The notes under the pieces: generated by a model
The model's input: only the letters and a program-made list of their open reading frames with translations
Database searches by the model: none
What the model was told of the DNA's origin: nothing
From: an uncultured Gemmatimonadota bacterium
GTDB taxonomy: Bacteria > Gemmatimonadota > Gemmatimonadetes > Gemmatimonadales > Gemmatimonadaceae
Direction of reading: 5' to 3'
DNA length: 64,000 bases
NCBI GenBank assembly: GCA_902826615.1
Contig: CADEFN010000001.1
Span: forward strand, 558,001-622,000
In this document: in pieces, positions 51,347 through 63,720 of the stretch
Layout: each line of letters begins with the position of its first letter
Numbering within the stretch: position 1 is the stretch's first letter
Position numbers and translations under genes: made by a program

Positions 51347-53833
51347 CTATCTCGTTGCTACTGCCACCACCGCCACTAGTGACGCCAGCACCTGGGCCAG
51401 GTTGCCGGCGATCTGCAGCCAGTCCCTTCTGTCATTCGGGTCACGCTCGGGCACCGTGACAGCGGCACCGGCGCGGGGTTGTGGATCACGCGAGAACATC
51501 AGCCACTTCGCGCGAGACTGAACCGAGCCATTGGGCTGCGTGACGAAGGCGCGCCGGAGATCGGCAAGACGTGATCCCCCGCCTGCTGCACTGATGTAGT
51601 AGTCGAGCGATTTTCCCTGGACATAGGCCACCGCCACCGGCGCGTTGACCGCGCCGGTCACCGTGACCACGGGGCTGTAGTTCGGGACGAAAATCGAGTC
51701 ACCGTCCTGCAGCGCCACGTTGTCCCGTGTGGAAGGGTCGCGGAGCACCCGCTCAAGGTCGAGACCCACGCGCCCGATGGCCCCGCGCCGCCGGAAGAAT
51801 CGCATCCCGTCCGCGTATCCCTCGGATGTGAGACCGCCGGCGCGCTGGATGAGATCACTCAGGCGCTCACTCTTGCTCTTGAGCGAGTAACTCCCGGGAT
51901 AACGCACCTCGCCCACAATGGCCACGATTCGCTGAATCTCCCAGTCCGGCTGGCGGAGGATGAGCACATTGTCAAAGGCCTTGATACCAAACTCGGGTGA
52001 GCCGCTCCCCGGCGCCGCCACGCCCGGTGGGCCCGGGTACGGGCGGTTGAGTACGCGATCGAAGACGTAGGTGGAATCGAGTGGGGTACGCAGGGTAGTG
52101 GCAAGGGTTCCACCGGCCCTGTTCTCGGGCATACGTGCCACCTCGGCTTCGGTGAGCAACGCACTCTGTTCCAGTCCGCCCGCCAGCAGCACCAGATCGC
52201 GCAGCGTCATTCCCTCGCGGTACGGGAAACGCCCCGGGTTCCGCACTGCACCTCCAATCACCACATGCCGGTCGGGGCGGAACTCTGTAAGGGAGAAGAT
52301 CCGGATCTCGTCGTCTTCGGCCAGCGCCACTTCCTGAACGGGCGTGCCCGTAGTATCACGCAGGGCCGCCCGGATAACCGACCGCGAGGAGTCAGGCCCG
52401 AGCCGAGAGATGAGCACCGTGCCGAGATACGTATCAGGCTTGGCTCCCCCGACACGACGGAGGGCCTCGCCTAACGTAAGACCGGTGGTGAAGCCCACGG
52501 GGCCCGGCGTCCACACGTTGCCGGTGATGGTCACGCGATTGCGAACGCGCTCGCTCACACCGAACACACGCACCACGTCGCCCGGCTCGACGTTTACCCG
52601 CGGACTCCCCGCACTGGCGAGCGCATCTCCGGTGACATCGAGCACCACCCGCTCCCGGCCCGGTGCACGTGTGGCCGGATTGGCAATCCGTTCGATCTGT
52701 ACGCGTGATCGGCCGGCTTCGGCGGCAAACCCGCCGGCTGCCGCAAGAACACTGGCCAATCCTTCGTCGGGCGTGACTTCGTAAATCCCGGGCCGAATCA
52801 CCCGCCCTTCGACACGAACGCGCGGCCCGTGCACGGGGACAAAGAGCACATCCCCGTTCTCCAGACGCGGATCGCGTGAGGCGTCGCCGCGAAGGAGGTA
52901 GTCGTAGAAATCAACGGTGCGCGCCGGTCCGCTGCCGCGCCGCAGCTCGAGGCGGCGCAGCGAGCCGACATCGCTAGGTCCACCGGCTGCATACAACGCG
53001 GTGAGCGCCGTGCCCAGACTCGACACGCGATAACTCCCAGGTCGGCGCACATCACCCACGACGTAGACCTGAATGCTGCGCAGTCGCGCGAGACTCACTG
53101 AAAAGCGCGTGGTGGCATCGCTGCCACGCCGCACCCCGGAGTACACACGACCGAGCCGCTGATAGAGCTGATCGTTGAGCTGTGCCAGCGTGAGGTTGGC
53201 TACCGGGAGTTGCCCAACGGCCGGCACCACCACAAAACCTTCACGGGTGACATCGAGTGTGTAGGCCTCTTCGACATCACCGGTGAGGATGAGCACCAGC
53301 TGATCGCCGGGGCCAAGGCGATACGACGGATCAACCGGGCCCGCCAGGTTGGCGTCGAACTGGGTGGTGGCTGCGCCCCGAAAGAGATCGAGCCCAAAGA
53401 TGCGCAGCGTGTCCCGTTCGGCAGCCTTGCCAGGCAGCACACGCGTGGTGTCTGGCTCGACTGTAAACGGCAGCGGCGGCGTGACCTCGGTTGCCAGCTG
53501 CGAAAAGGTGGCGAACTCGGTGGAATCCACCAGACCGAGCCGACGCATGGCCGTGAGCACGTTGTTCGACGGCGCTGCGGAATCGGTGGCCGTGCCAGTC
53601 GCGAGGAACTGATCCAGAAGCGAAGAGGGATACCCGGCTGCCGTCAGACGAGCACGGAGCTGTTCGGGCGTAAGCCCACTGGTCTGGACCCGCTGCCGAA
53701 CCTGGGCTGCCAGATCAGAGCGCGACTTGAGAAGTCGCTGCGCTTCTTCGGCCGACGGGATCCGCTGGGCCTGCAGGACGCCGGCCGAAGCGGCAAAGGA
53801 GCCGTGTAGGAGCAACCGCCAAACGAGGCGCAT
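51347..53833 (-). CDS. multi-SLBB polysaccharide export protein (Wza-like)
   Basis: About 828 residues from the ATG at 53833, where a signal peptide MRLVWRLLLHGSFAASAGVLQAQ begins (a TTG at 53893 is also in frame). A poly-export domain (PSYRLGPGDQLVLILTGDV) is followed by about six SLBB domains, each with a V-x-G-x-V-x-x-P-G-x-Y turn (VYVVGDVRRPGSYRVSS, VRVEGRVIRPGIYEV, VTITGNVWTPGPVGF, VVIGGAVRNPGRFPYREG, VAIVGEVRYPGSYSLKS, VTVTGAVNAPVAVAYVQG). A C-terminal hydrophobic segment (LAQVLASLVAVVAVA) may span a membrane. It is far longer than E. coli Wza and resembles the long export proteins of exosortase-type EPS systems. Convergent with the Wzz gene. Confidence 0.88.
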   Translation of the reverse strand: MRLVWRLLLHGSFAASAGVLQAQRIPSAEEAQRLLKSRSDLAAQVRQRVQTSGLTPEQLRARLTAAGYPSSLLDQFLATGTATDSAAPSNNVLTAMRRLGLVDSTEFATFSQLATEVTPPLPFTVEPDTTRVLPGKAAERDTLRIFGLDLFRGAATTQFDANLAGPVDPSYRLGPGDQLVLILTGDVEEAYTLDVTREGFVVVPAVGQLPVANLTLAQLNDQLYQRLGRVYSGVRRGSDATTRFSVSLARLRSIQVYVVGDVRRPGSYRVSSLGTALTALYAAGGPSDVGSLRRLELRRGSGPARTVDFYDYLLRGDASRDPRLENGDVLFVPVHGPRVRVEGRVIRPGIYEVTPDEGLASVLAAAGGFAAEAGRSRVQIERIANPATRAPGRERVVLDVTGDALASAGSPRVNVEPGDVVRVFGVSERVRNRVTITGNVWTPGPVGFTTGLTLGEALRRVGGAKPDTYLGTVLISRLGPDSSRSVIRAALRDTTGTPVQEVALAEDDEIRIFSLTEFRPDRHVVIGGAVRNPGRFPYREGMTLRDLVLLAGGLEQSALLTEAEVARMPENRAGGTLATTLRTPLDSTYVFDRVLNRPYPGPPGVAAPGSGSPEFGIKAFDNVLILRQPDWEIQRIVAIVGEVRYPGSYSLKSKSERLSDLIQRAGGLTSEGYADGMRFFRRRGAIGRVGLDLERVLRDPSTRDNVALQDGDSIFVPNYSPVVTVTGAVNAPVAVAYVQGKSLDYYISAAGGGSRLADLRRAFVTQPNGSVQSRAKWLMFSRDPQPRAGAAVTVPERDPNDRRDWLQIAGNLAQVLASLVAVVAVATR

Positions 53834-53962
53834 CACGAATCGGAAAGGGGCCGGAGCAAGGGATACGCAACTCTGCATCCCTGTGGCATTCAACGACTTG
53901 CCGTCGTGTTGACGGCACTCCGGGAATCGTAACGTCGCCCTGTGTGACGGGGTAGAGCAGGG

Positions 53963-54003
53963 CCGAAAAGAGACGGGGTGGGACCCGAAGGCCCCACCCC
54001 GTC
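53963..54003 (-). terminator. intrinsic terminator after the PEP-CTERM gene (minus strand)
   Basis: GACGGGGTGGG (53972-53982) pairs perfectly with CCCACCCCGTC (53993-54003), an 11-bp stem. Read on the minus strand it is followed by TCTTTTC. It lies 25 bases after the stop of the PEP-CTERM gene and should end its transcript. Confidence 0.8.
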
Positions 54004-54027
54004 AGCGCCGAGAAACTCGGGGGAAAG

Positions 54028-54642
54028 TCAGCTCTCGGTGCTCTTGCGACGGCGCTTGAATGCGCCGGCGCCACCAACACCGGCGAGGCCGGTCGCGAGG
54101 AGTGCCATCGTTACGGGCTCCGGGGCGGCATGCGCCGCGCTCAGGATTTCCACGTCGTCGATGTAGTACTCGGCGCCCGACGAGCTGAAGCGGACTTCGT
54201 CGATGAGGCCGTTATCCTGCGCACCATTCAGGTCCACTTTCGTGGCGCCGGTCATCTGGCCGTTCAGGTTGCGAACCCACTGCTGCTGACCACCACGATA
54301 CCCGGCGATCGTGAGCGGGTAGTTGTTGTACCACCCCGACCCGATGTAGAGCGAACCGAGGAAGAACTCGGTCGAGGAACGGAAGCCGGACTGCCCACGA
54401 GAGAAGGCCACCATGTCGCCAGAGACAGCGTCATAACCGCCTCCGTACGTGTTGGTGAACGACGTAGCGTTGAGTCCCCAGAAGCTCGAGAAGTCGAGGC
54501 CGAGGTAGTTGCCGATCGTCGGGTACATCGCGCTGGTCGCAAAGAAGCCCTCGAAGTCGACGACCGTGGACTGCGCCTGTGCCGGCTGAGTGATCGCGAG
54601 GGAAAGGGCGATCGCCGTTCCGAACTTCGTGAAACTCTTCAT
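54028..54642 (-). CDS. PEP-CTERM sorting-domain protein
   Basis: A 204-residue exported protein. A signal peptide (MKSFTKFGTAIALSLAITQPAQAQ) is followed by a beta-rich domain with many Gly/Ser/Tyr/Asn (FEGFFATSAMYPTIGNYLG, SGWYNNYPLTIAGYRGG, DEVRFSSSGAEYYIDDVEI). The C-terminus is a PEP-CTERM signal: APEPVTM, a hydrophobic helix LLATGLAGVGGAGA, and the basic tail FKRRRKSTES. An exosortase would process this, but none is in the window. PEP-CTERM proteins are associated with EPS or biofilm matrix, which suits the location. Low lysine and high Gly/Ser suggest a matrix protein. A perfect CRP-type palindrome is 41 bases upstream of the start. Confidence 0.93.
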   Translation of the reverse strand: MKSFTKFGTAIALSLAITQPAQAQSTVVDFEGFFATSAMYPTIGNYLGLDFSSFWGLNATSFTNTYGGGYDAVSGDMVAFSRGQSGFRSSTEFFLGSLYIGSGWYNNYPLTIAGYRGGQQQWVRNLNGQMTGATKVDLNGAQDNGLIDEVRFSSSGAEYYIDDVEILSAAHAAPEPVTMALLATGLAGVGGAGAFKRRRKSTES

Positions 54643-54682
54643 AGTTGTGGACTCCGTGTAGGTCGCGCCGACGGCAGGACAT

Positions 54683-54698
54683 TGTGACCCATATCACA
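54683..54698. promoter_or_regulatory. perfect CRP/FNR-family palindrome (TGTGA-N6-TCACA)
   Basis: TGTGA (54683-54687), six bases CCCATA, then TCACA (54694-54698): the full consensus half-sites of CRP-type regulators with the right spacing, 41-56 bases upstream of the PEP-CTERM ATG. No CRP gene is in the window, so the regulator is inferred only from the site. Confidence 0.6.
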
Positions 54699-54882
54699 TC
54701 CCCGTCTCTGCCACTGACTAAGGCAAGCCGCGTACCAGACCCAACGCGCCCGACAACCATCACTTTTTCACAAGCTGACTGGAGGATCCTCGACACTCCG
54801 CAGCGACTTCGCAGCACTCAGGACGATCTGGCAGTATGAATTCGGCCACAATGGCCGCTCCGCGGTGTCCGCGGGCCAAATC

Positions 54883-56610
54883 CTAGGGCGCGCTCACTGT
54901 TCGAGCAGCGGACTCCGCCTCTCGGGAGAGCCAAATCGCGTTGGGCTCCCGCCAGAAGATCCCCGTAAGGTCAGAAACCCATAGCCGGAACTCGGGAGTC
55001 CTTCGACCGGTCGGGTTCGCCGGAAGCCCGATCTCAAGACGCAGGCTCTGCCGCGAACCGGCCGGCAAGGCGGCGATAAGGGCGGCCCCAACCCCGTAGC
55101 GCCATCGCGTCCCCACACCGTAAGGCGCATCGCCCGCCCAAATCCGCCCGGCTTCGGCCAGGCCGGCGACGGCAAGCTCTACTCGCTCCACGGGTGAGGG
55201 AATGCGATGACGCTCCTCGAAGCGCGCCACCACACGCTCCGCGCCGCCAACGTCGCTCCCGCGAAAGCCCACCAGGCCACCAGTGAGATCGCGAAAATCC
55301 ACCTGCCGCGGCACCCGCGATCGGCTGCTCAGCGCCGCATCGGCTGACACGGTGGTGAGATGGCCTTCGCTGAGCTTGCCAAACCAGGCGACACGTCCGC
55401 TGCCAGTGAACTGCCGCGAGACGCCTGAGTCATTGGCAGATCGCCACTCCGAACTCCAGGTGAAGCGCCAGAGGGAACGCGCACTTCCGGCCGCCGCGGT
55501 GGCGGCCACCACGCCCACGCGATCGGTGGGCGCCCGCTGCAACGCACCCACTCCATGGAGGCCGAGCACAAAGAGCTGTGCTCCAATGGGTACGTCTTCC
55601 GGCGCACTCAGCGCAGCGAGCCCTCGCACAGGGAGAAAGCGAACGCGGCGCACGCCGGCGGCGAGTCCGGCACGGACCGCCTCGAATTTTCCGTAGCGCG
55701 CAAGTTCTGGAGGCGACGCGACGGGCACGGCACCGCTCGAGCCAAAGCGCACGGTGCGCACTCTGTTGGCGAGCTCACCCGTCATGACCGCACCAAGGTT
55801 GGCGCCGCGATTCACACCGCCAAAGCGGTGCACACCACCCACCTGCCAGCGACGACGATAGTACTCGAGCGAGATCTCGCGAATGTCGGGATCACGGAAC
55901 GTGAAAAACCGCTGCTCCTCTCCGAAGCCGAACTGCCATGCCGTCTGCTGGAAGTTTGTCAGAAAGGGGCGTTGCAGCGAGAGCGACCAGTAATCGGTCA
56001 AGGGGCGCTGCCCGGCGCGGGCGTCGAGCACGAGTGTTCGGCCCAGGGCCTGGTAGTCCGTGTACCGCACGCCCCAGCCGACGTCGTTTCCCCGTCCGAG
56101 TTCTACCAGGCCTCGCAGCCCGCGCGCGGCGCCTCCCAGATTGGCGGTGCCCAGCTCGAGCCCGGCAGGTATCTCGCGGGTGCCACCCCAGATTTCGGCG
56201 CCGAGCACAAACTCATCGATCGTTTCCACTTCCAGCCGCACCTCGCCGGGTGCTACGGGTCGTACGCGGATGACGGCGTCGCTGATGAATGGCTGGGCTC
56301 GCAGTACACGCTCCGATTCACTGCGGCGCTGCTCGAGGCAGGTGTCTCCCGGTTTGAGCAGGAGATACCGCCGCACCACACTCACTCGTGTGGCGGGCTG
56401 AAGGGCGAGCAGCGCCCGATTGAGCAGAACCCCAGCCCCTCCCAGCTCCCTGCCGACCAGGTCTCGGCGTGCGCCGCGGAATGTGACGTCGACGATACGT
56501 TCGCCACCGCAGCGTTGGTCCGCGCCGGCGGCTTCGAGGCGCTGCGCCTCACCGCGCTCGGGGAGAGCGGCGAGGAACAACCCGAGCAGCCAGGGGCGGG
56601 AGCGTATCAC
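54883..56610 (-). CDS. BamA/TamA-like outer-membrane beta-barrel protein with POTRA-like domain
   Basis: About 575 residues from a GTG at 56610 that begins a signal peptide (IRSRPWLLGLFLAALPERGEAQ); an upstream TTG at 56634 is also in frame. Residues about 40-140 (RIVDVTFRGARRD, LKPGDTCLEQRRSESERVLRAQPFISDAVIRVRP) look like one POTRA-type domain. The rest has the alternating aromatic/polar strands of an outer-membrane barrel, ending near the C-terminus without the usual terminal Phe. It is shorter than BamA. A role in outer-membrane protein or polysaccharide assembly is likely. Divergent from the GT2 gene. Confidence 0.7.
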   Translation of the reverse strand: MIRSRPWLLGLFLAALPERGEAQRLEAAGADQRCGGERIVDVTFRGARRDLVGRELGGAGVLLNRALLALQPATRVSVVRRYLLLKPGDTCLEQRRSESERVLRAQPFISDAVIRVRPVAPGEVRLEVETIDEFVLGAEIWGGTREIPAGLELGTANLGGAARGLRGLVELGRGNDVGWGVRYTDYQALGRTLVLDARAGQRPLTDYWSLSLQRPFLTNFQQTAWQFGFGEEQRFFTFRDPDIREISLEYYRRRWQVGGVHRFGGVNRGANLGAVMTGELANRVRTVRFGSSGAVPVASPPELARYGKFEAVRAGLAAGVRRVRFLPVRGLAALSAPEDVPIGAQLFVLGLHGVGALQRAPTDRVGVVAATAAAGSARSLWRFTWSSEWRSANDSGVSRQFTGSGRVAWFGKLSEGHLTTVSADAALSSRSRVPRQVDFRDLTGGLVGFRGSDVGGAERVVARFEERHRIPSPVERVELAVAGLAEAGRIWAGDAPYGVGTRWRYGVGAALIAALPAGSRQSLRLEIGLPANPTGRRTPEFRLWVSDLTGIFWREPNAIWLSREAESAARTVSAP

Positions 56611-56727
56611 GCGCCAATGTAGTGTGCCGATCAAGTGTCAGAGATACCCGATCGGACGCGCTCCGCGCAGTGAATACGAACACACACCGCTTGGCCCCGG
56701 GGTGCCTGTCCCACTACACTAGCCCGT

Positions 56728-58233
56728 GTGACGGCGGAATCCATTACTGGCGCGCTGACCTCCGCAACGGGGGCATGGTTCGCCCTCGCGGTGCACATCG
56801 CTGGCGTACTTGGCTGTGTGGCGTACGGCATCGGACAGGCGCATCTCGCCTGGTATCTCTGGCGTCGTCCACCGCGCGCGGCGCCGCCGGCTCTCCCGCC
56901 TGACGACGAGCTGCCGTTCGTCACCGTTCAGGTGCCGATGTACAACGAGCGGTATGTCGCGGCGGCTGTGATTGACGCCTGTGCCCAGCTCGACTGGCCG
57001 CGGCATCGCTTCGAGCTCCAGCTGCTCGACGACTCTGTAGATGAGACCAAGGCTATCGTGGATGAGCGGGCCGCGTACTGGCGCGCTCATGGAGTCGACG
57101 TAACGGTCGTCAGGCGCACGGTTCGCACCGGGTACAAGGCCGGCGCCCTGGCCCATGCGGCAACGAGCGCACGTGGCGAATTTCACGCGCTCTTTGATGC
57201 AGACTTTCGCCCCGAGCGCGACTTCTTGCGGCGTACGATGGGCTGGTTCGCCGACGAACGTGTCGGCGCCGTGCAGGCTCGCTGGGGGCACCTGAATCGC
57301 GAGTGGTCCTGGCTCACACGGGCGCAGTCTGTGGTGATCGACGCCTTTTTTGTGGGCGAGCAGGAAGCACGTGATCGGGCCGGCTTTTTTGTACGCTTCA
57401 ATGGGTCGGCGGGTATCTGGCGGGCGCGCGCGATCGCGTCGTCGGGGGGATGGCTCGCCGACACCCTGGCCGAGGATCTCGATCTGGCCTATCGCGCCCA
57501 GCTCGGTGGATGGCGCATTGTGTTCACGCGCGATGTGGTTGCGCCTGCTGAGCTGCCGGTCACGGTGCACGACTACAAGGTGCAGCAGACGCGGTGGGCG
57601 CGCGGACGCGGTCAGGTCATCCGCAAACTGCTTCCAGCTGTTTGGCGGGCGCCCATTCCGCGTCTCGTGAAAGCGCATGCGATGTTCGACTTGCTGAACA
57701 TCGTTGTCGCACCCGCGGTGCTGCTCTTGCTCATCGGCAGTGCCTGGCTTGTGCTCGCGCTCGATTCGCAGCCCGCGGCGCGTCCCCTGGCGCGCTGGGT
57801 GGGCCTTGCGCAGCTGCCGACCAATATCGGCATCCTGCCACTCTATCTGGTGTTTGCCTTGCGTCCCTATGCCCGGACGTTGTGGGCATTTGCCGGCGAG
57901 GCGTTGCGCTGTGTGCCGCCATTTTTCGCCCTCATCATGGGGGTCAACGCCGTGCTGTTCACCCAGGTGATCGCCGGGCTGCGTGGTGGCGTGGCGCCCT
58001 TCCATCGTACGAGCAAGTACAATGTCGACGCAGGGCGTGGTGGGTGGCGCTCCAAACTCTACAAACCGACAGAGATTTCGGGGGTGACCTGGCTCGAGGG
58101 TGCCCTGGCGGCCGCGGGGGCGGCATCCCTCATCGTCGATGTGACCATGAGTGCCTGGTTCTGGATCCCATTCCATCTGGTCACGATCTGGGGCTTTGGC
58201 GCGCTCTTCACGCTTTCACTTGTCCGCCGATAG
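56728..58233 (+). CDS. processive GT2 membrane glycosyltransferase (cellulose-synthase/glucosylceramide-synthase-like)
   Basis: A 501-residue protein from a GTG at 56728. It has one N-terminal TM helix, a GT-A domain with VTVQVPMYNERYVAAAVIDA, LLDDSVDET, FDADFRPERDFL (DxD), AEDLDLAYRAQL and QQTRWARGRGQV (QxxRW, the processive signature), then about four C-terminal TM helices. It resembles bacterial beta-glucan or mannan synthases. It lies alone between two predicted outer-membrane barrels and no cyclic-di-GMP PilZ domain is fused, so the product is a separate glycan or a lipid-linked sugar (inference). Confidence 0.87.
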   Translation: MTAESITGALTSATGAWFALAVHIAGVLGCVAYGIGQAHLAWYLWRRPPRAAPPALPPDDELPFVTVQVPMYNERYVAAAVIDACAQLDWPRHRFELQLLDDSVDETKAIVDERAAYWRAHGVDVTVVRRTVRTGYKAGALAHAATSARGEFHALFDADFRPERDFLRRTMGWFADERVGAVQARWGHLNREWSWLTRAQSVVIDAFFVGEQEARDRAGFFVRFNGSAGIWRARAIASSGGWLADTLAEDLDLAYRAQLGGWRIVFTRDVVAPAELPVTVHDYKVQQTRWARGRGQVIRKLLPAVWRAPIPRLVKAHAMFDLLNIVVAPAVLLLLIGSAWLVLALDSQPAARPLARWVGLAQLPTNIGILPLYLVFALRPYARTLWAFAGEALRCVPPFFALIMGVNAVLFTQVIAGLRGGVAPFHRTSKYNVDAGRGGWRSKLYKPTEISGVTWLEGALAAAGAASLIVDVTMSAWFWIPFHLVTIWGFGALFTLSLVRR

Positions 58234-58245
58234 CGGTAGACGTGC

Positions 58246-59859
58246 CTAACGCAGGCCCCGGACTGTGAGGAGTGCCAGTACGTTGTGCCGTGCGCCAGGC
58301 TTGAAGTCGAAGCCGCCGACCCGTTCGTATCCGCCGCGCACACCAACCTCCAGACCCTGCCATCCGCGAAACTGCAGGTAATCGGCGGTCACACGCTGCC
58401 GCCGTTCCTCGGGGCCGTTCCGAATGCGGAACCAGTCGAAATCCCAGAACCCGCCACCGGCAATCCGTCGCAAGGCGTAGTAGTCGCTGGTGTAGTCTTC
58501 GAGCGCGACGCTAATGCGCAGTCGTGACTGTGTGGCGGTCCAGGTGCCTTCGAAGAGAAGACCGCTCGAGTTCGGGCCGAGGGCATCACCCAGCACACGC
58601 CGGTCGAGTGTGATACCTGATGTGAATTGGTAGTGTGTATGTGGCACCGGACCGGTGTGACGTGCTTCGACGCGGAGATCGAGGCGTCCTTCGGTTCCAA
58701 GTCCATGACGCTCGGCGCCCACCACCCAGATGGCGTCTTCCCAGTAACCACCGGCCGGCTGCCGAAAACGACCCCGATCGTCGGTGGTGAGGAAGTTGGC
58801 GTACAGTGCCAGCTGCGCTGACGGCACCGATACTCGAACGTCGGCACCCACGGCTTTGTCAGACAAGTTGTAGAAGCCGCCATTCTTCCAGAAGAGGAAG
58901 AGGTCGTACCAGCGTTCACCCGCTGTGCCCGCGGGCGCCCCCTCGCCACCCTGCACATTCATGTAGTTGAGCCCGAACTCAACGAAGCGTGATGGCTGAT
59001 TGCTGAGGCGCGCCACCAAAATGCCGGACCCCGGCTGATCCCGGTTGCGACCAAGGGTGCCTGCCGAGAGAACACCTTGCCAGGCACCAGCGTGACGGAG
59101 AATGCCGGGAAGGCGCACGGGCCGCTCGGCACGCACTCGGATGAGATCGAGTGGGCGGGCATTGTCGCTCAACATGGCACCGCCGTGTACCCCAAAGCCC
59201 TGCAGCATTGGTGTTCGTCCCACATCAATCGCCAGCGGACCGGCCACCGCACGCACGTAGCCGGTGAGAAGGTGTACATCACCCGCCCCTTTCTCGATGC
59301 GGTCCAGACCGCCATGGCCACGTGCCGTGAGCTCGGCGGCAAATCGCCCGCGCTCGAAGGCACCACCGCCCTCCACTGCGAGTGTGAGCCCGTCAAAGAG
59401 GACACGTCCCGCATTTCGCTGCAACAACGGATTCAGGTCGGCATCGATGACATCGGGTTCGTAACCTGATTGCATGGCCCGAGATGGACTGCGTGCCATC
59501 GACAGTGTCGCGGAGAACGGCGCAAGTCGTACAGACTTCGAAGAATCTGAGTCCTTACGAAAGCGCGATTGCAAGCGCTCGAGCGCTTCGCGAATACGCG
59601 GTGTCGAAGTGCTCGCACCAGCCAGGCTGTCAGCCTGCCGGACAAAACGAGTGAACGCAGCCCGTGAGTAGGGCCGATCGCCGACCATGACCGTGGTGAC
59701 GAGGCCATGTGCGATGAGCACGCCGAGATCGTCGTAGGCGGGGTCGAGGATCGGCACATACACCGATCCCTGCGCGCGTATTGCCCCTGCCGACGTCAGG
59801 CAGACGCACGCAAGGCACCATCGGACAGCGACCAGCAGTTTCACGCGGCGCAGAAACAC
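58246..59859 (-). CDS. Wzi-like capsule assembly outer-membrane protein
   Basis: About 537 residues if the GTG at 59859, preceded by AGAGGAG, is used (a GTG at 59916 is also in frame). The signal MFLRRVKLLVAVRWCLACV ends at AIRAQ. The remainder matches the capsule assembly Wzi family: a short N-terminal helical plug (YVPILDPAYDDLGVLIAHG, FTRFVRQAD), then repeated membrane strands (RFAAELTARGHGGLD, LAIDVGRTPMLQGFG, ALEDYTSDYYALRRIAGG). Wzi anchors capsule polysaccharide to the cell surface. Its stop TAG is embedded in a GCCTAAC heptamer. Convergent with the GT2 gene. Confidence 0.82.
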   Translation of the reverse strand: MFLRRVKLLVAVRWCLACVCLTSAGAIRAQGSVYVPILDPAYDDLGVLIAHGLVTTVMVGDRPYSRAAFTRFVRQADSLAGASTSTPRIREALERLQSRFRKDSDSSKSVRLAPFSATLSMARSPSRAMQSGYEPDVIDADLNPLLQRNAGRVLFDGLTLAVEGGGAFERGRFAAELTARGHGGLDRIEKGAGDVHLLTGYVRAVAGPLAIDVGRTPMLQGFGVHGGAMLSDNARPLDLIRVRAERPVRLPGILRHAGAWQGVLSAGTLGRNRDQPGSGILVARLSNQPSRFVEFGLNYMNVQGGEGAPAGTAGERWYDLFLFWKNGGFYNLSDKAVGADVRVSVPSAQLALYANFLTTDDRGRFRQPAGGYWEDAIWVVGAERHGLGTEGRLDLRVEARHTGPVPHTHYQFTSGITLDRRVLGDALGPNSSGLLFEGTWTATQSRLRISVALEDYTSDYYALRRIAGGGFWDFDWFRIRNGPEERRQRVTADYLQFRGWQGLEVGVRGGYERVGGFDFKPGARHNVLALLTVRGLR

Positions 59860-59976
59860 CTCAAGCGAGACTCCTCTCACCAAAGACACCAACGAATCAA
59901 AAAGGTAATCCCACACCCGCAGCTGATGCGTCGTGTGTGCCGCATTACAAATCGGCTGCTCTCTCCATGAGGTCCG

Positions 59977-60690
59977 TCACGCGGTCGCGTCGAAGAGCTG
60001 TTGAGCTCGGACGAGGTCGGCAGGAAAGTCGATTTCCGTCCACGGCTCGCCATTGGTGGGGATGCTCGCCACGACGTGTGTGTCGAGGAGTGAGGCGAGC
60101 GCATCCTCATAGCCGGTGGCCGTCATGCCTGCGGACGTCTGACGAGTGACCAGCAGTGACAAATCGGAAACTGCAGCCGCGGACAGCAGGGCGAAGCCCA
60201 CCCATTCTCCTTCGGCGTCGTGCCCCGGCACCGGTCCCCGTTTGAGCGCACGGACTCGGTCCTCCACGACGCCCGCCATGTACTGCTCGTCGGTGAACCT
60301 CGAGCTGAAGTCGATGAGGAGCCTGCACGGTGCCGGCGTCGGTGAAGACAGAAAGGCGCGGAGCAGCGGCTCACCGAAGGCCACGTCTCCATCCATAAGA
60401 AGGAGGTCTCCCACGACGCCAGCCAGCCCGCACTGCAACGACACGATACTCCCCAGCTGGTAGTCCGGATTGAACACGAGGGTGGGTGGATGCTTGCGGG
60501 TGCTCACCATCGCGGCAACGTGTTCTGCCCCATGCCCCACCACGATAGTTGCCGGCATCTCGATGGCATCGAGGGCGTCGAGGTATCGTGTGATGAGGGT
60601 TCGTCCACCGACGGAGGCGAGGCACTTGGGCTGGCCATCGGGCAGGCCGAGCCGGGTGCCGCGGCCCGCGGCGAGGATCAAAGCATGCAC
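59977..60690 (-). CDS. NTP-transferase-like nucleotidyltransferase (LicC/IPCT/PntC type)
   Basis: A 237-residue protein from a GTG at 60690. HALILAAGRGTRLG at 2-15 with Lys22 in GQPKCL, then DGDVAFGEP and GEPWTEIDFPADL at the end, are marks of MobA-like/CTP-dependent nucleotidyltransferases that activate phosphocholine, phosphoethanolamine, inositol phosphate or aminoethylphosphonate. Its divergent neighbour is a CDP-alcohol phosphotransferase, so CDP-activation of an alcohol phosphate is likely (inference). No phosphonate gene (pepM) is in view. Confidence 0.8.
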   Translation of the reverse strand: MHALILAAGRGTRLGLPDGQPKCLASVGGRTLITRYLDALDAIEMPATIVVGHGAEHVAAMVSTRKHPPTLVFNPDYQLGSIVSLQCGLAGVVGDLLLMDGDVAFGEPLLRAFLSSPTPAPCRLLIDFSSRFTDEQYMAGVVEDRVRALKRGPVPGHDAEGEWVGFALLSAAAVSDLSLLVTRQTSAGMTATGYEDALASLLDTHVVASIPTNGEPWTEIDFPADLVRAQQLFDATA

Positions 60691-60755
60691 GACAGAGGGT
60701 GTGTCGGGTGGATCTGAACGACAGATTGAGGGATGCGACCAATCTACCACATCTC

Positions 60756-61763
60756 ATGACCGAGCCCCCCAACACGTATCGCTTCACCGATGCGTCGGTC
60801 TGGCGTCCATGGGTGACGCGGGTGTGGTTCGAACGACTCTTTCCCCTGCTGCCGCGGTGGCTGGCGGCGAACCTCATTACCCTGCTCAGCACCGGCGCGC
60901 TGCTGCTGGTCTTTGGACTGGCACTGGCACCTGAGGGCGTACCGCCGAGCGTCTTTGCATTTGTGCTGCTGCTGGTCATTCAGTTCTACGTGGCCGGGGA
61001 TCATCTGGACGGCATGCAGGCCAAGGCGACCGGCACCACCTCGCCGTTAGGTGACTTTCTCGATCATCACTGCGACTTGTGGGCGGGGTGTATCCTGGTC
61101 TTTGCGTACTGCGCTCTCACGGGGACGGTGGCGTCGTGGCAGCTCCCGGTGATGACGCTCCTGATGGGGGCCGGGTTCGCCGTCACCTACACCGAACGTG
61201 CCGAATTTCGCCGTCTGCACTTTACCTCGTGGGGGACACTCGAGGCCATTGTCATTGTCTCGGTGTTCTTTGCCAGCTGGATGGTGCCGCCCCTCGCCCG
61301 CTGGTGGGGTCGTCCCCTGTGGGACGGAAGCGTTCTCGCGCGGCACCTTGTGGTCACGGTGCTCGGCTGCGTCATGTGCGTGGGAGCGATGGCCGTCATC
61401 ATCCGGCGGATGCGAGGGATCAGCTGGCGCCTCGGCCTTCACCTGCTGACCACTGGTGCTGTGGCGAGCTGGTGCCAGGTGCACGCACTGGACGCATGGA
61501 TCGGCTGGTTGATGACGGTGCTGATCAGCGCGGAGTTTGTCGCTCGGCTCATGCAGGCGCACACGCGTGATGGACATCGTCCACGTCCGGCCTGGGGCGC
61601 GGCGGTCGGTGCAGGTGCGCTCTGGCTGGCACCACCCTCGACGTGGCTACCCAAACTTGTCCTTGCCTGGCTTGTGCTGGTCTACCTGCAGACGATGTGG
61701 CGCGTTCTGTGGCCCTGGCGATCGCACTGGCGGTGGGTCAACACGGCCCCCTCCGGCCGCTGA
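60756..61763 (+). CDS. CDP-alcohol phosphotransferase of the CEPT/EPT type
   Basis: A 335-residue membrane enzyme from the ATG at 60756. The family site is complete: D82, D85, G86, A89, G99, D103 and D107 in DHLDGMQAK followed by SPLGDFLDHHCD. The SPLG-x-x-x-DHxCD part and AK in place of AR resemble eukaryotic choline/ethanolamine phosphotransferases more than bacterial PgsA. About ten TM helices follow. It would transfer a phospho-alcohol from a CDP-derivative to a lipid acceptor. The nucleotidyltransferase gene lies 65 bases away on the other strand. Confidence 0.85.
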   Translation: MTEPPNTYRFTDASVWRPWVTRVWFERLFPLLPRWLAANLITLLSTGALLLVFGLALAPEGVPPSVFAFVLLLVIQFYVAGDHLDGMQAKATGTTSPLGDFLDHHCDLWAGCILVFAYCALTGTVASWQLPVMTLLMGAGFAVTYTERAEFRRLHFTSWGTLEAIVIVSVFFASWMVPPLARWWGRPLWDGSVLARHLVVTVLGCVMCVGAMAVIIRRMRGISWRLGLHLLTTGAVASWCQVHALDAWIGWLMTVLISAEFVARLMQAHTRDGHRPRPAWGAAVGAGALWLAPPSTWLPKLVLAWLVLVYLQTMWRVLWPWRSHWRWVNTAPSGR

Positions 61764-61785
61764 GGGACGCAGCCGTTCGCCAGTC

Positions 61786-63720
61786 TCAGGCGGGTGAGGG
61801 CGACGCTGTATCCGTGGCGGTGTTCCGGAGTCGGTCCCATGTCGCGATGGCCAGCACGTACGTGGTTAGATACGCGCCCTGCTCAGCGAGTGGCCAGATC
61901 TCTGCCGTGGGCGAACCGGCAAGGCGCATGATCCAGAGGCTCCCGAAACGCAGCGCGCTCATGAGCAGCACGACCTGCATCAGCTCGCGTGTGACCGTTT
62001 GTCGCGCGATGACCAGTGCGGTCAGGAGCAGTAGCGGAATCTTCGCGAGGATAATGGGCAGGAACCGCTGCACCTCGAGTTCCACCTGATGCGCGGGAAA
62101 GAAGTCGTAGAGAAAGCCCCACTCCAGTGAGCCGGCAAGCCAGCTCGACGTGATGGTGAAGCTGCCCACCACGAGAAGGGCGTGCAGGAGGGTGCGGCGC
62201 GAAGCGCTGGTGAGGCGAGCCTGGTTCCCGAAATGATAGGCCAGCAGAAAGAAAATGTCGGCAATCGCAAAGAGGTACAGCGGAAGCCGCAGTGTGTAGT
62301 ACAGCAGCGTCTGCAGTGCCGCGATGAGCGCGATGCGTCGTGCCCATGGGGCAGGGTGCCGCCAGGCCAGCACTCCCCAAACGCCCGCCAGCGACAACAC
62401 GAGGATGGGGTGGGCCAGGACGGAGAACTCCACGAGGACAATCAGTGTGTTCACGCCAGCCGCTCCCCACCATGGCGTGGCCCCCCGGTCGCGCAGTGTG
62501 ACGAGTTTGGCGACAATCCCGACCGCGTAGAGCACCACCACACCGCTCAGGGGTCCCGGCCGCAGCAGCGCACCGAGCGCCGCCAATGCGTCGCGCATAA
62601 CGAGTTCGGGGATAAACACCGCCAGCGCCACCAGCCAGCCTGTGGCGGTCAGTGAGGCTCCCGTGGTTCCCAGCACCAGCCACCAGGCAAGGGCGATGCC
62701 CGCCGCCAGGACGACCGCGGCATACAGGTAGTCGGTGGGGACCTTGGTCCATCGCCGCGTCAGGCTATCGGAAGGCAGGGAATCGGTAGGTGTCGTGGTC
62801 ACCGGTATGACGCGCGCCAGCTCCGAGATGGCGTACCGAGCGGGGCGGAGTGTCAGCCCCATGGAGTGACTGACGAGATACCGAATGTTGGTCGTCTCCA
62901 GCTGCGCGGTCTCCGACCCGGGCACGACCTCGGGGCCAAGCAGGAGAGCAAAGGTGGGGATGTCGAAACCCGTTTTGTGTTCGCCGCGTTCATTGTGGCC
63001 ATGATCGCCGAGGACCAGCACGTAATCGCTGGAGTCGGCGAGTGCGGCCACCTGGGCGATCAGCGAGTCGGCATGTTTGGCGGAGGCGAAATAGCGCGGG
63101 TGTTTGATGCCGACCTCGTGCGCTACCCAGTCAAACGCCTCGTGGTGCAGCACGACGATGTCAAAGGCGCCGCTGCGCCACCCGCTGATGGCGATGTCAG
63201 GCCGTTGGGCGTCCAGCGCGTACTGGTCCAGACGTCCCTGCGGATAACGCTGCTCAAAGACGGGACCGAACTGGATGAACGGCTCACGAGCCACCACCAG
63301 CGTGCGCTTACCGAGCCCGTGTACGTCGCGAAAGAAGGACTCGATAGGCAGGGCATTGAAGCGGAAGTTCTGCACCACATTCACGAGCTGCGTTTCAGCA
63401 TATCCGCTGAAGGCCGCGCGCACCGCCGGAATGGTGAAGCCTTCGTAGACCGTGGAGAGGGGAATGGATGCGCCGCGAGTGCGCAGCGCAGCCAGCTGCG
63501 GAAAGAGCGTGGAATCCAGGGCCGACTCCTGCCGCCAGCTGTCGACGAGAAGAATGAAGAGCCGCCCATGCCGGGTCGTGTCGATCGAGGCAATGCCGGG
63601 GTCCAGCGGCCGCGGCGGACGATGGATCTGGTCGGCGGCAAGGAGAGCGACCACCGCCGCGGCCAGAACCAACAGCGTCAGTGCAGCTACGCCAACGATT
63701 CGCCTGAGCTGACCAATCAC
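61786..63720 (-). CDS. GPI ethanolamine-phosphate-transferase-like membrane phosphotransferase
   Basis: A 644-residue protein from a GTG at 63720. The N-terminal half is an alkaline-phosphatase-superfamily domain with the full metal site: D60 in FILLVDSWRQ, T96 in EGFTIPAVR as nucleophile, D197 and H201 in FDWVAHEVG, D239-H240 and H248 in LGDHGHNERGEHKTG. The C-terminal half has about 10 TM helices. This layout is that of PIG-N/PIG-O/PIG-G proteins, which move ethanolamine phosphate from phosphatidylethanolamine to a glycan. It is the third gene of a probable module with the two preceding genes. Overlaps the TPR gene by four bases. Confidence 0.75.
   Translation of the reverse strand: MIGQLRRIVGVAALTLLVLAAAVVALLAADQIHRPPRPLDPGIASIDTTRHGRLFILLVDSWRQESALDSTLFPQLAALRTRGASIPLSTVYEGFTIPAVRAAFSGYAETQLVNVVQNFRFNALPIESFFRDVHGLGKRTLVVAREPFIQFGPVFEQRYPQGRLDQYALDAQRPDIAISGWRSGAFDIVVLHHEAFDWVAHEVGIKHPRYFASAKHADSLIAQVAALADSSDYVLVLGDHGHNERGEHKTGFDIPTFALLLGPEVVPGSETAQLETTNIRYLVSHSMGLTLRPARYAISELARVIPVTTTPTDSLPSDSLTRRWTKVPTDYLYAAVVLAAGIALAWWLVLGTTGASLTATGWLVALAVFIPELVMRDALAALGALLRPGPLSGVVVLYAVGIVAKLVTLRDRGATPWWGAAGVNTLIVLVEFSVLAHPILVLSLAGVWGVLAWRHPAPWARRIALIAALQTLLYYTLRLPLYLFAIADIFFLLAYHFGNQARLTSASRRTLLHALLVVGSFTITSSWLAGSLEWGFLYDFFPAHQVELEVQRFLPIILAKIPLLLLTALVIARQTVTRELMQVVLLMSALRFGSLWIMRLAGSPTAEIWPLAEQGAYLTTYVLAIATWDRLRNTATDTASPSPA

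Follow-up and report, generated by a model that had tools for sequence, protein, structure and literature searches.

A three-gene module of an uncultured Gemmatimonadota bacterium as the probable head-group branch of a bacterial sphingolipid cluster

Close to the end of a window of 64,000 nt from Gemmatimonadota contig CADEFN010000001.1 (positions 558,001-622,000; assembly GCA_902826615.1) lie three genes that encode a nucleotidyltransferase, a CDP-alcohol phosphotransferase and a membrane enzyme of the alkaline-phosphatase superfamily (Table 1). We propose that their products probably supply the head-group steps for a bacterial sphingolipid (ceramide) cluster whose core starts just beyond the window. 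An earlier note on the window had read them as a module that activates an alcohol phosphate, attaches it to a lipid and then passes the phospho-alcohol to a surface glycan, possibly the product of a neighboring polysaccharide cluster. The three open reading frames, the SPLG-x3-DHxCD site of the CDP-alcohol enzyme and the complete metal site of the membrane enzyme that it described are all present, with every reported catalytic residue intact. The window ends only 280 bases past the gene of the membrane enzyme, and the ceramide genes were invisible to the earlier reader because they lie outside it.

The CDP-alcohol enzyme belongs to its superfamily by its PF01066 score (27.8 bits against a cut-off of 22) and carries the motif D82-x2-D85-G86-x2-A89-K90-x8-G99-x3-D103-x3-D107, within which the SPLG-x3-DHxCD site falls; the usual Arg of this motif is replaced by a Lys (K90) that is invariant among close relatives. 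When the PDB was searched by sequence, CEPT1 and CHPT1 were its sole relatives besides one chance match, and a profile search of the same database found CHPT/CEPT alone (E 1.7e-17). The AF2 model (pLDDT 93.9), compared by Foldseek, gave a TM of 0.74-0.77 to CHPT1 and CEPT1 over the whole length and of about 0.4 to PIPS and PgsA, and the structural alignment with eukaryotic CEPT1 and CHPT1 has 16-19% identity. Together, the searches and the modeled fold place the enzyme in the CEPT/CHPT/EPT type of the superfamily. Identity as a phosphatidylinositol or phosphatidylglycerophosphate synthase, which the earlier note had raised as the outcome that would overturn its reading, was rejected, as the enzyme falls below the cut-offs of both models (PIPSynth, 25.9 vs 170 bits; pgsA, 20.6 vs 109 bits). 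In a tree it is nested inside a clade linked to the synthesis of 2-aminoethylphosphonate (AEP), with a support of 0.99 for its grouping with the enzyme of genome G112; no relatives were found in viral contigs.

The longest open reading frame of the nucleotidyltransferase spans 59977-60750 on the minus strand, with a GTG start at 60690 giving 59977-60690; the latter start is likelier since the orthologues begin at its equivalent. The protein keeps the GRGTRL loop, the Lys of the PK motif and the site D100/D102/E195/D196, and in an equivalog scan came near the cut-off of no model, among them IPCT and GlmU. Four genomes with AEP synthesis genes (G112, G117, G251 and G382) have standalone nucleotidyltransferases to which it is 47-56% identical, and comparison with these AEP-linked enzymes assigns it by sequence to the LicC/PntC sort. 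PntC enzymes (Tde1415 of Treponema denticola and Ari1348 of A. rimae) are PF12804 LicC-like AEP cytidylyltransferases, in which the amine site is formed by Glu104 and Glu196 (Tde-PntC), as against an Asp pair in LicC (PMC6697681). The corresponding positions here are D100 and E195, a mixed pattern that differs from Tde-PntC at the first position and is invariant in the AEP-linked orthologues. The window enzyme has the LicC-like PF12804 fold, intact GxGTRL loop and catalytic Lys of a PntC, while the accompanying phosphoenolpyruvate (PEP) mutase pathway is present in the four orthologue genomes and lacking in the window genome.

The three genes were followed through 395 genomes sampled evenly across the phylum and, separately, through the 60 nearest relatives. 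In the nearer set the CDP-alcohol enzyme and the phosphatase-like membrane protein were confined to the window genome, which suggested a lone acquisition, an idea rejected when the wider sample revealed a linked family. Strong matches among the 395 genomes number six for the CDP-alcohol enzyme, seven for the phosphatase-like protein and five for the nucleotidyltransferase (at least 47% identity); the phosphatase-like protein is found in five of the six genomes having the CDP-alcohol enzyme, and all three genes occur together in five, namely the window genome, G112, G117, G251 and G382, the named records of the relatives being uncultured Gemmatimonadota. Pairwise Fisher tests gave p = 1.6e-9, 7.7e-11 and 2.7e-10 (5e-9 to 8e-8 without the window genome), values whose strength is overstated since the tests take genomes as independent, but the five genomes are five genera. 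The grouping is thus not a product of chance, and the co-conservation that the earlier note had put forward as a check was borne out. In G251 the order and strands of the genes are identical to those of the window, at 39-47% identity. Farther afield, a distant pair of CDP-alcohol enzyme and phosphatase-like protein is found together in an Opitutaceae genome (locus L083), and pairs of nucleotidyltransferase and CDP-alcohol enzyme occur in Myxococcales, one Verrucomicrobia genome and one Deltaproteobacteria genome. The Myxococcales loci L092, L093, L096, L097 and L107 have the conserved order nucleotidyltransferase, CDP-alcohol enzyme and a further protein of about 300 residues, the latter 79-84% identical to the L107 copy; no phosphonate genes lie within the fetched flanks.

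In all four relatives the module is accompanied by AEP synthesis genes. They are contiguous with it in G112, G117 and G382, where a block of three AEP genes stands between those for nucleotidyltransferase and CDP-alcohol enzyme; in G251 they occupy a different contig. These genes encode a PEP mutase fused to a nucleotidyltransferase-like domain, a phosphonopyruvate decarboxylase (Ppd) and a 2-aminoethylphosphonate aminotransferase (AEPT). The mutases carry the diagnostic EDKxxxxxNS motif; the one decarboxylase scored, that of G382, is above the TIGR03297 cut-off; and the aminotransferase has its best match to TIGR03301, below cut-off. In four Gemmatimonadota loci (L071, L072, L073 and L123) the nucleotidyltransferase domain fused to the mutase is degenerate, having lost its catalytic Lys (PK to PL) and the normal form of its glycine loop, although the genome also encodes a separate enzyme that is intact, and for this reason the standalone orthologue of the window gene is, to judge by these sequences, probably the working cytidylyltransferase of the four relatives. 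The same AEP gene set surrounds more distant CDP-alcohol enzymes in G300, where the standalone nucleotidyltransferase matches Tde-PntC (E 3e-34), and in several Opitutae. A CDP-alcohol enzyme together with PEP mutase, Ppd and AEPT, the full set that marks a cluster for AEP phosphonolipids, is present at the locus in G112, G117, G382 and G300, divided between contigs in G251 and missing in the window genome.

The ceramide genes start 0.8 kb past the last gene of the module (locus L007, for which the genome position is 612,000 plus the locus position), and the ligase, acyl carrier, SPT-like, CerR-like and CerS-like components are found together at G000:C1:624351-629967. The cluster consists of an FA_hydroxylase, a family-2 glycosyltransferase, a CerR-like epimerase-fold reductase, a CerS-like GNAT acyltransferase and a fused protein of 1159 residues with acyl-AMP ligase, acyl carrier and alpha-oxoamine-synthase (SPT-like) domains (L007 14488-17967; C1:626488-629967). 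It is most likely a bacterial ceramide cluster, in which CerR and CerS are assigned by domain type and context. The reading of the oxoamine-synthase domain as SPT rests on its neighbors, because no SPT model reaches its cut-off with it (207-280 bits against 500-670; bioF, 359 against 426). Ceramide genes adjoin the module in G117 and G251 and lie within about 6 kb of it in G112, and in G382 they are divided between two contigs, each of which also carries module genes. G117, G251 and G382 likewise have the ligase next to the SPT-like part, with the order unchanged.

The third protein, the membrane enzyme, has an N-terminal helix, an NPP-type core at approximately residues 50-310 and roughly ten C-terminal helices, a rough count being the only use made of the topology, since its model has a mean pLDDT of 58 overall and is poor in the membrane half. 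All residues of the metal site (D60, T96, D197, H201, D239, H240 and H248) are present; the six metal ligands do not vary among the seven sequences aligned, nor in a distant Opitutaceae (Verrucomicrobiota) relative that is only 30% identical, and the position of the nucleophile, T96, is Thr or Ser among relatives. A fold search matched NPP chains (over residues 49-310), ENPP6 and ENPP7 at Z 19-21, the best structural matches being bacterial NPP, ENPP1/3, ENPP7 (alkaline sphingomyelinase) and ENPP6. With its six metal ligands, Thr/Ser nucleophile and NPP fold, the protein is a member of the alkaline-phosphatase superfamily of NPP type. No PDB sequence matched it, either by single sequence or by profile. 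PIG-N, PIG-O and PIG-G likewise combine a phosphodiesterase-superfamily core, an N-terminal helix and an extensive membrane domain, and it was to PIG-N and PIG-O that the earlier note had likened the enzyme. The general layout is alike; the likeness otherwise consists of a superfamily-level match to PF01663 with no solved relative by sequence, the fold ranking gives NPP/ENPP, and no glycosylphosphatidylinositol (GPI) pathway is expected in bacteria. PIG proteins were not among the fold matches, an absence that excludes nothing, and the core would suit either a PIG-N-type transferase or a head-group hydrolase, with no preference between the two. In G117, G382 and the Opitutaceae locus L083, the module has beside it a second membrane protein from this superfamily, LtaS/YejM-like in type. 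Involvement of the third enzyme in head-group chemistry is suggested by its conservation with the CDP-alcohol enzyme, by an NPP fold common to choline-head-group phosphodiesterases and by this LtaS/YejM-like neighbor. Copies of the second protein, of the sulfatase/LtaS/YejM sort, are located at L046 2702-4669, L050 13277-15397 and L083 1-1958 and are 47-60% identical to one another; in L088, L089 and L094 the neighbor of the CDP-alcohol enzyme is another kind of LtaS-like protein.

From these components we propose a pathway of three steps. The nucleotidyltransferase, by its family, would join CTP to AEP or to its isostere phosphoethanolamine, giving CMP-AEP or CDP-ethanolamine. The CEPT-type enzyme would then move the head group to the primary hydroxyl of ceramide with release of CMP, the fold and family pointing to the reaction and ceramide being the predicted acceptor, which the adjacent SPT-, CerS- and CerR-like genes would supply. 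Finally, the NPP-type membrane enzyme, whose fold and conservation fit such a role, may act outside the cytoplasm, either passing the head group to another acceptor in the manner of PIG-N, for example a sugar of a glycosylceramide, or cleaving it. Family and fold support the first two steps of the earlier note, activation of the CTP type and then attachment to a lipid by a CEPT/EPT-type enzyme, with substrates that we predict. The lipid is most likely ceramide, given the conserved ceramide neighbors, and the compound activated in the relatives is most likely AEP rather than phosphoethanolamine alone. For the window genome we predict phosphoethanolamine or scavenged AEP as the head group, since the AEP genes are absent there, and in the close relatives AEP. 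Ceramide is preferred over diacylglycerol because the ceramide linkage is conserved and because the Psd gene of the window genome adjoins a further CDP-alcohol enzyme gene, which is likely of PssA type, so that PE should not depend on the module enzyme. Insect ceramide phosphoethanolamine synthase is a ceramide-using member of the choline/ethanolamine phosphotransferases.

Several observations weigh against this proposal. The SPT-like domain, below the SPT equivalog cut-offs, is nearer the BioF model. CerS-like genes are common in the phylum, being found in 210 of the 395 genomes as against 6 with the module, so that most genomes with CerS-like genes are without it; none were found in three congeners of the window genome in the same sample. 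The AEP cluster of G300, with its distant CDP-alcohol enzyme, has no CerS among the matches listed, which makes a diacylglycerol acceptor possible in the wider family. The window genome itself has no PEP mutase, no orthologue of the phosphonopyruvate decarboxylase and nothing close to the AEP aminotransferase, an absence for which a gap in the assembly, although this is rated 99% complete, might conceivably account; and the choline/ethanolamine kinase family PF01633 is absent from the window genome and was found in none of the five genomes searched. Candidates for an own AEP pathway were rejected one by one: the single PF13714 hit is PrpB-like and without the EDKxxxxxNS motif; the best decarboxylase hit is a split pair of short genes with the layout of sulfopyruvate-decarboxylase subunits, away from phosphonate genes; and the best aminotransferase hit is just 28% identical. 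Two short adjacent genes at L122 4839-5977 (genome C3:528839-529977) each resemble one half of a phosphonopyruvate/sulfopyruvate decarboxylase.

The alternative that bears most directly on the acceptor is a Kennedy-type glycerolipid module, in which diacylglycerol is the acceptor, the product is a glycerophosphonolipid or a second route to phosphatidylethanolamine (PE), and the ceramide cluster is a mere neighbor. CEPT/CHPT and the Treponema cholinephosphotransferase do use diacylglycerol (PMC6805115), a Nostoc AEP cluster with a CDP-alcohol enzyme has been interpreted as phosphonolipid synthesis (PMC5987646), and the G300 cluster without a listed CerS match agrees with it. However, the close relatives with the same enzyme clade all have the ceramide cluster nearby, and ordinary PE synthesis should not need the module enzyme, since Psd and the other CDP-alcohol enzyme gene are already present; we therefore regard a glycerolipid module as unlikely. 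A different question concerns only the third step and is compatible with the first two, namely whether the membrane NPP-type protein is a head-group phosphodiesterase, engaged in recycling like a sphingomyelinase, rather than a transferase that decorates a glycan. Its fold matches include two enzymes whose structures were solved with phosphocholine, ENPP7 and the choline phosphodiesterase ENPP6, but its long membrane domain of many helices sets it apart from the soluble ENPP core and brings it closer to PIG-N/EptA-type transferases, and the LtaS/YejM-like second protein beside the module in several loci suggests, though not decisively, transfer chemistry. A hydrolytic third step is in our judgment a serious possibility, if one that falls somewhat short of an even chance.

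The window's own polysaccharide cluster offers the setting for a further alternative, the decoration of a capsule or exopolysaccharide, to which the earlier note had tentatively tied the module. Wzi, a Wza-type SLBB protein and a glycosyltransferase do lie directly upstream, but Wzi is without a match in any relative's locus and it is the ceramide genes that travel with the module; the link to the capsule cluster thus found no support, and we consider such a role highly improbable. A decaying remnant is about as improbable: the AEP genes would have been lost and the three remaining genes left without a substrate, in keeping with the fact that, among the five module genomes, AEP genes are missing from the window genome only. 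Yet all three frames are open with their catalytic residues intact, and of the columns that are invariant in the other genomes the nucleotidyltransferase departs at 6 of 80 (four genomes) and the CDP-alcohol enzyme at 11 of 99 (G300 left out), none of them known to be catalytic.

The strands of the three genes (-, +, -) make the first two divergent and the last two convergent, and therefore they are not one transcript and not an operon. No G+C contrast that would mark an island was found in the 20 kb around the module. Upstream, the stretch 51347-59916 contains polysaccharide export genes, including a Wza-type protein with several SLBB domains and Wzi; within this exopolysaccharide region a short secreted protein (54028-54642, minus strand) has PEPVTMALLATGLAGVGGAGAFKRRRKSTES as its end, a sequence resembling a PEP-CTERM sorting signal. 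Two genes of this part of the window are weakly linked to the module by way of locus L052 of genome G279, in which a 60% identical homologue of the window glycosyltransferase adjoins a phosphatase-like gene and a second glycosyltransferase, and a 45% identical homologue of the probable beta-barrel protein adjoins the glycosyltransferase and the phosphatase-like gene.

Table 1. Genes of the module and two weakly linked genes, in window coordinates
Feature	Position	Strand	Basis
LicC/PntC-type cytidylyltransferase-like nucleotidyltransferase	59977..60690	-	PF12804 E=2.7e-15
CEPT/EPT-type CDP-alcohol phosphotransferase	60756..61763, ATG at 60756	+	PF01066 above cut-off
Membrane alkaline-phosphatase-superfamily enzyme, NPP-type core	61786..63720	-	PF01663 above cut-off
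Family-2 membrane glycosyltransferase, weakly linked	56728..58233	+	PF13632/PF00535
Probable outer-membrane beta-barrel protein, weakly linked	54883..56634	-	Sequence appearance; no Pfam family found

Several known systems resemble parts of the proposed pathway. With the eukaryotic CEPT1, CHPT1 and EPT1 the window enzyme shares the whole fold and the CDP-alcohol motif, and it differs in being bacterial, in having Lys for Arg in that motif and in its linkage to ceramide and AEP genes. Among bacteria, the 1,2-diacylglycerol cholinephosphotransferase of T. denticola acts in a CDP-choline pathway for phosphatidylcholine fed by LicC-type activation (PMC6805115). This is the same type of reaction, and a Treponema putidum homologue falls in the family; the substrates there are choline and diacylglycerol, however, the window enzyme is 19% identical to the T. 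putidum homologue, and no ceramide or AEP genes were found at the locus of the latter. AEP phosphonolipid clusters with PEP mutase, Ppd, AEPT, an NTP transferase and a CDP-alcohol transferase have been predicted in Nostoc and Burkholderia (PMC5987646), where no connection of theirs with ceramide synthesis or with a membrane enzyme of NPP type is described; the phosphonate genes, for their part, are missing from the window genome. In the phosphosphingolipid locus of Caulobacter, an acyl-ACP synthetase, AcpR, Spt, CerR and CerS are clustered with head-group genes (PMC11324152). The same types of ceramide component thus stand beside head-group genes in both organisms, but Caulobacter makes ceramide phosphoglycerate starting with a ceramide kinase, whereas a CDP-activated head group is proposed here, and its ligase, acyl carrier protein and Spt are separate genes, whereas in the window genome they are one fused protein. 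Chemically, a ceramide-type lipid whose head group is a phosphonate has been described from Bacteriovorax (Bdellovibrio) stolpii, and the papers found on it name no genes that add this head group (PMC6148460; PMC5648825).

Our literature search, mostly of freely accessible papers, did not find the combination of PntC and a CDP-alcohol enzyme with a ceramide cluster or an NPP-type enzyme. The head-group chemistry itself is already known; what appears new is its linkage to the ceramide cluster and to the NPP-type enzyme. The loci provide a candidate cytidylyltransferase, CEPT-type transferase and NPP-type enzyme for the genetically unexplained phosphono-sphingolipids of bacteria, candidates whose genes lie in the relatives alongside those for making ceramide as well as AEP. 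The window genome, having no phosphonate source of its own, can serve as a natural point of comparison. More speculatively, and with rather little confidence, we suggest that the window lineage may have turned a phosphonate-sphingolipid pathway into a phosphate one, in which the PntC-type enzyme activates phosphoethanolamine, the CEPT-type enzyme makes ceramide phosphoethanolamine and a PIG-N-like step decorates a glycosylceramide. We know of no bacterium with a Kennedy-like synthesis of ceramide phosphoethanolamine. If this conversion had occurred, it would amount to a bacterial analogue of the ethanolamine-phosphate decoration of GPI, built on a sphingolipid; and if the proposed head-group branch is correct, bacteria would use eukaryote-style transfer of CDP-activated head groups onto sphingolipids.

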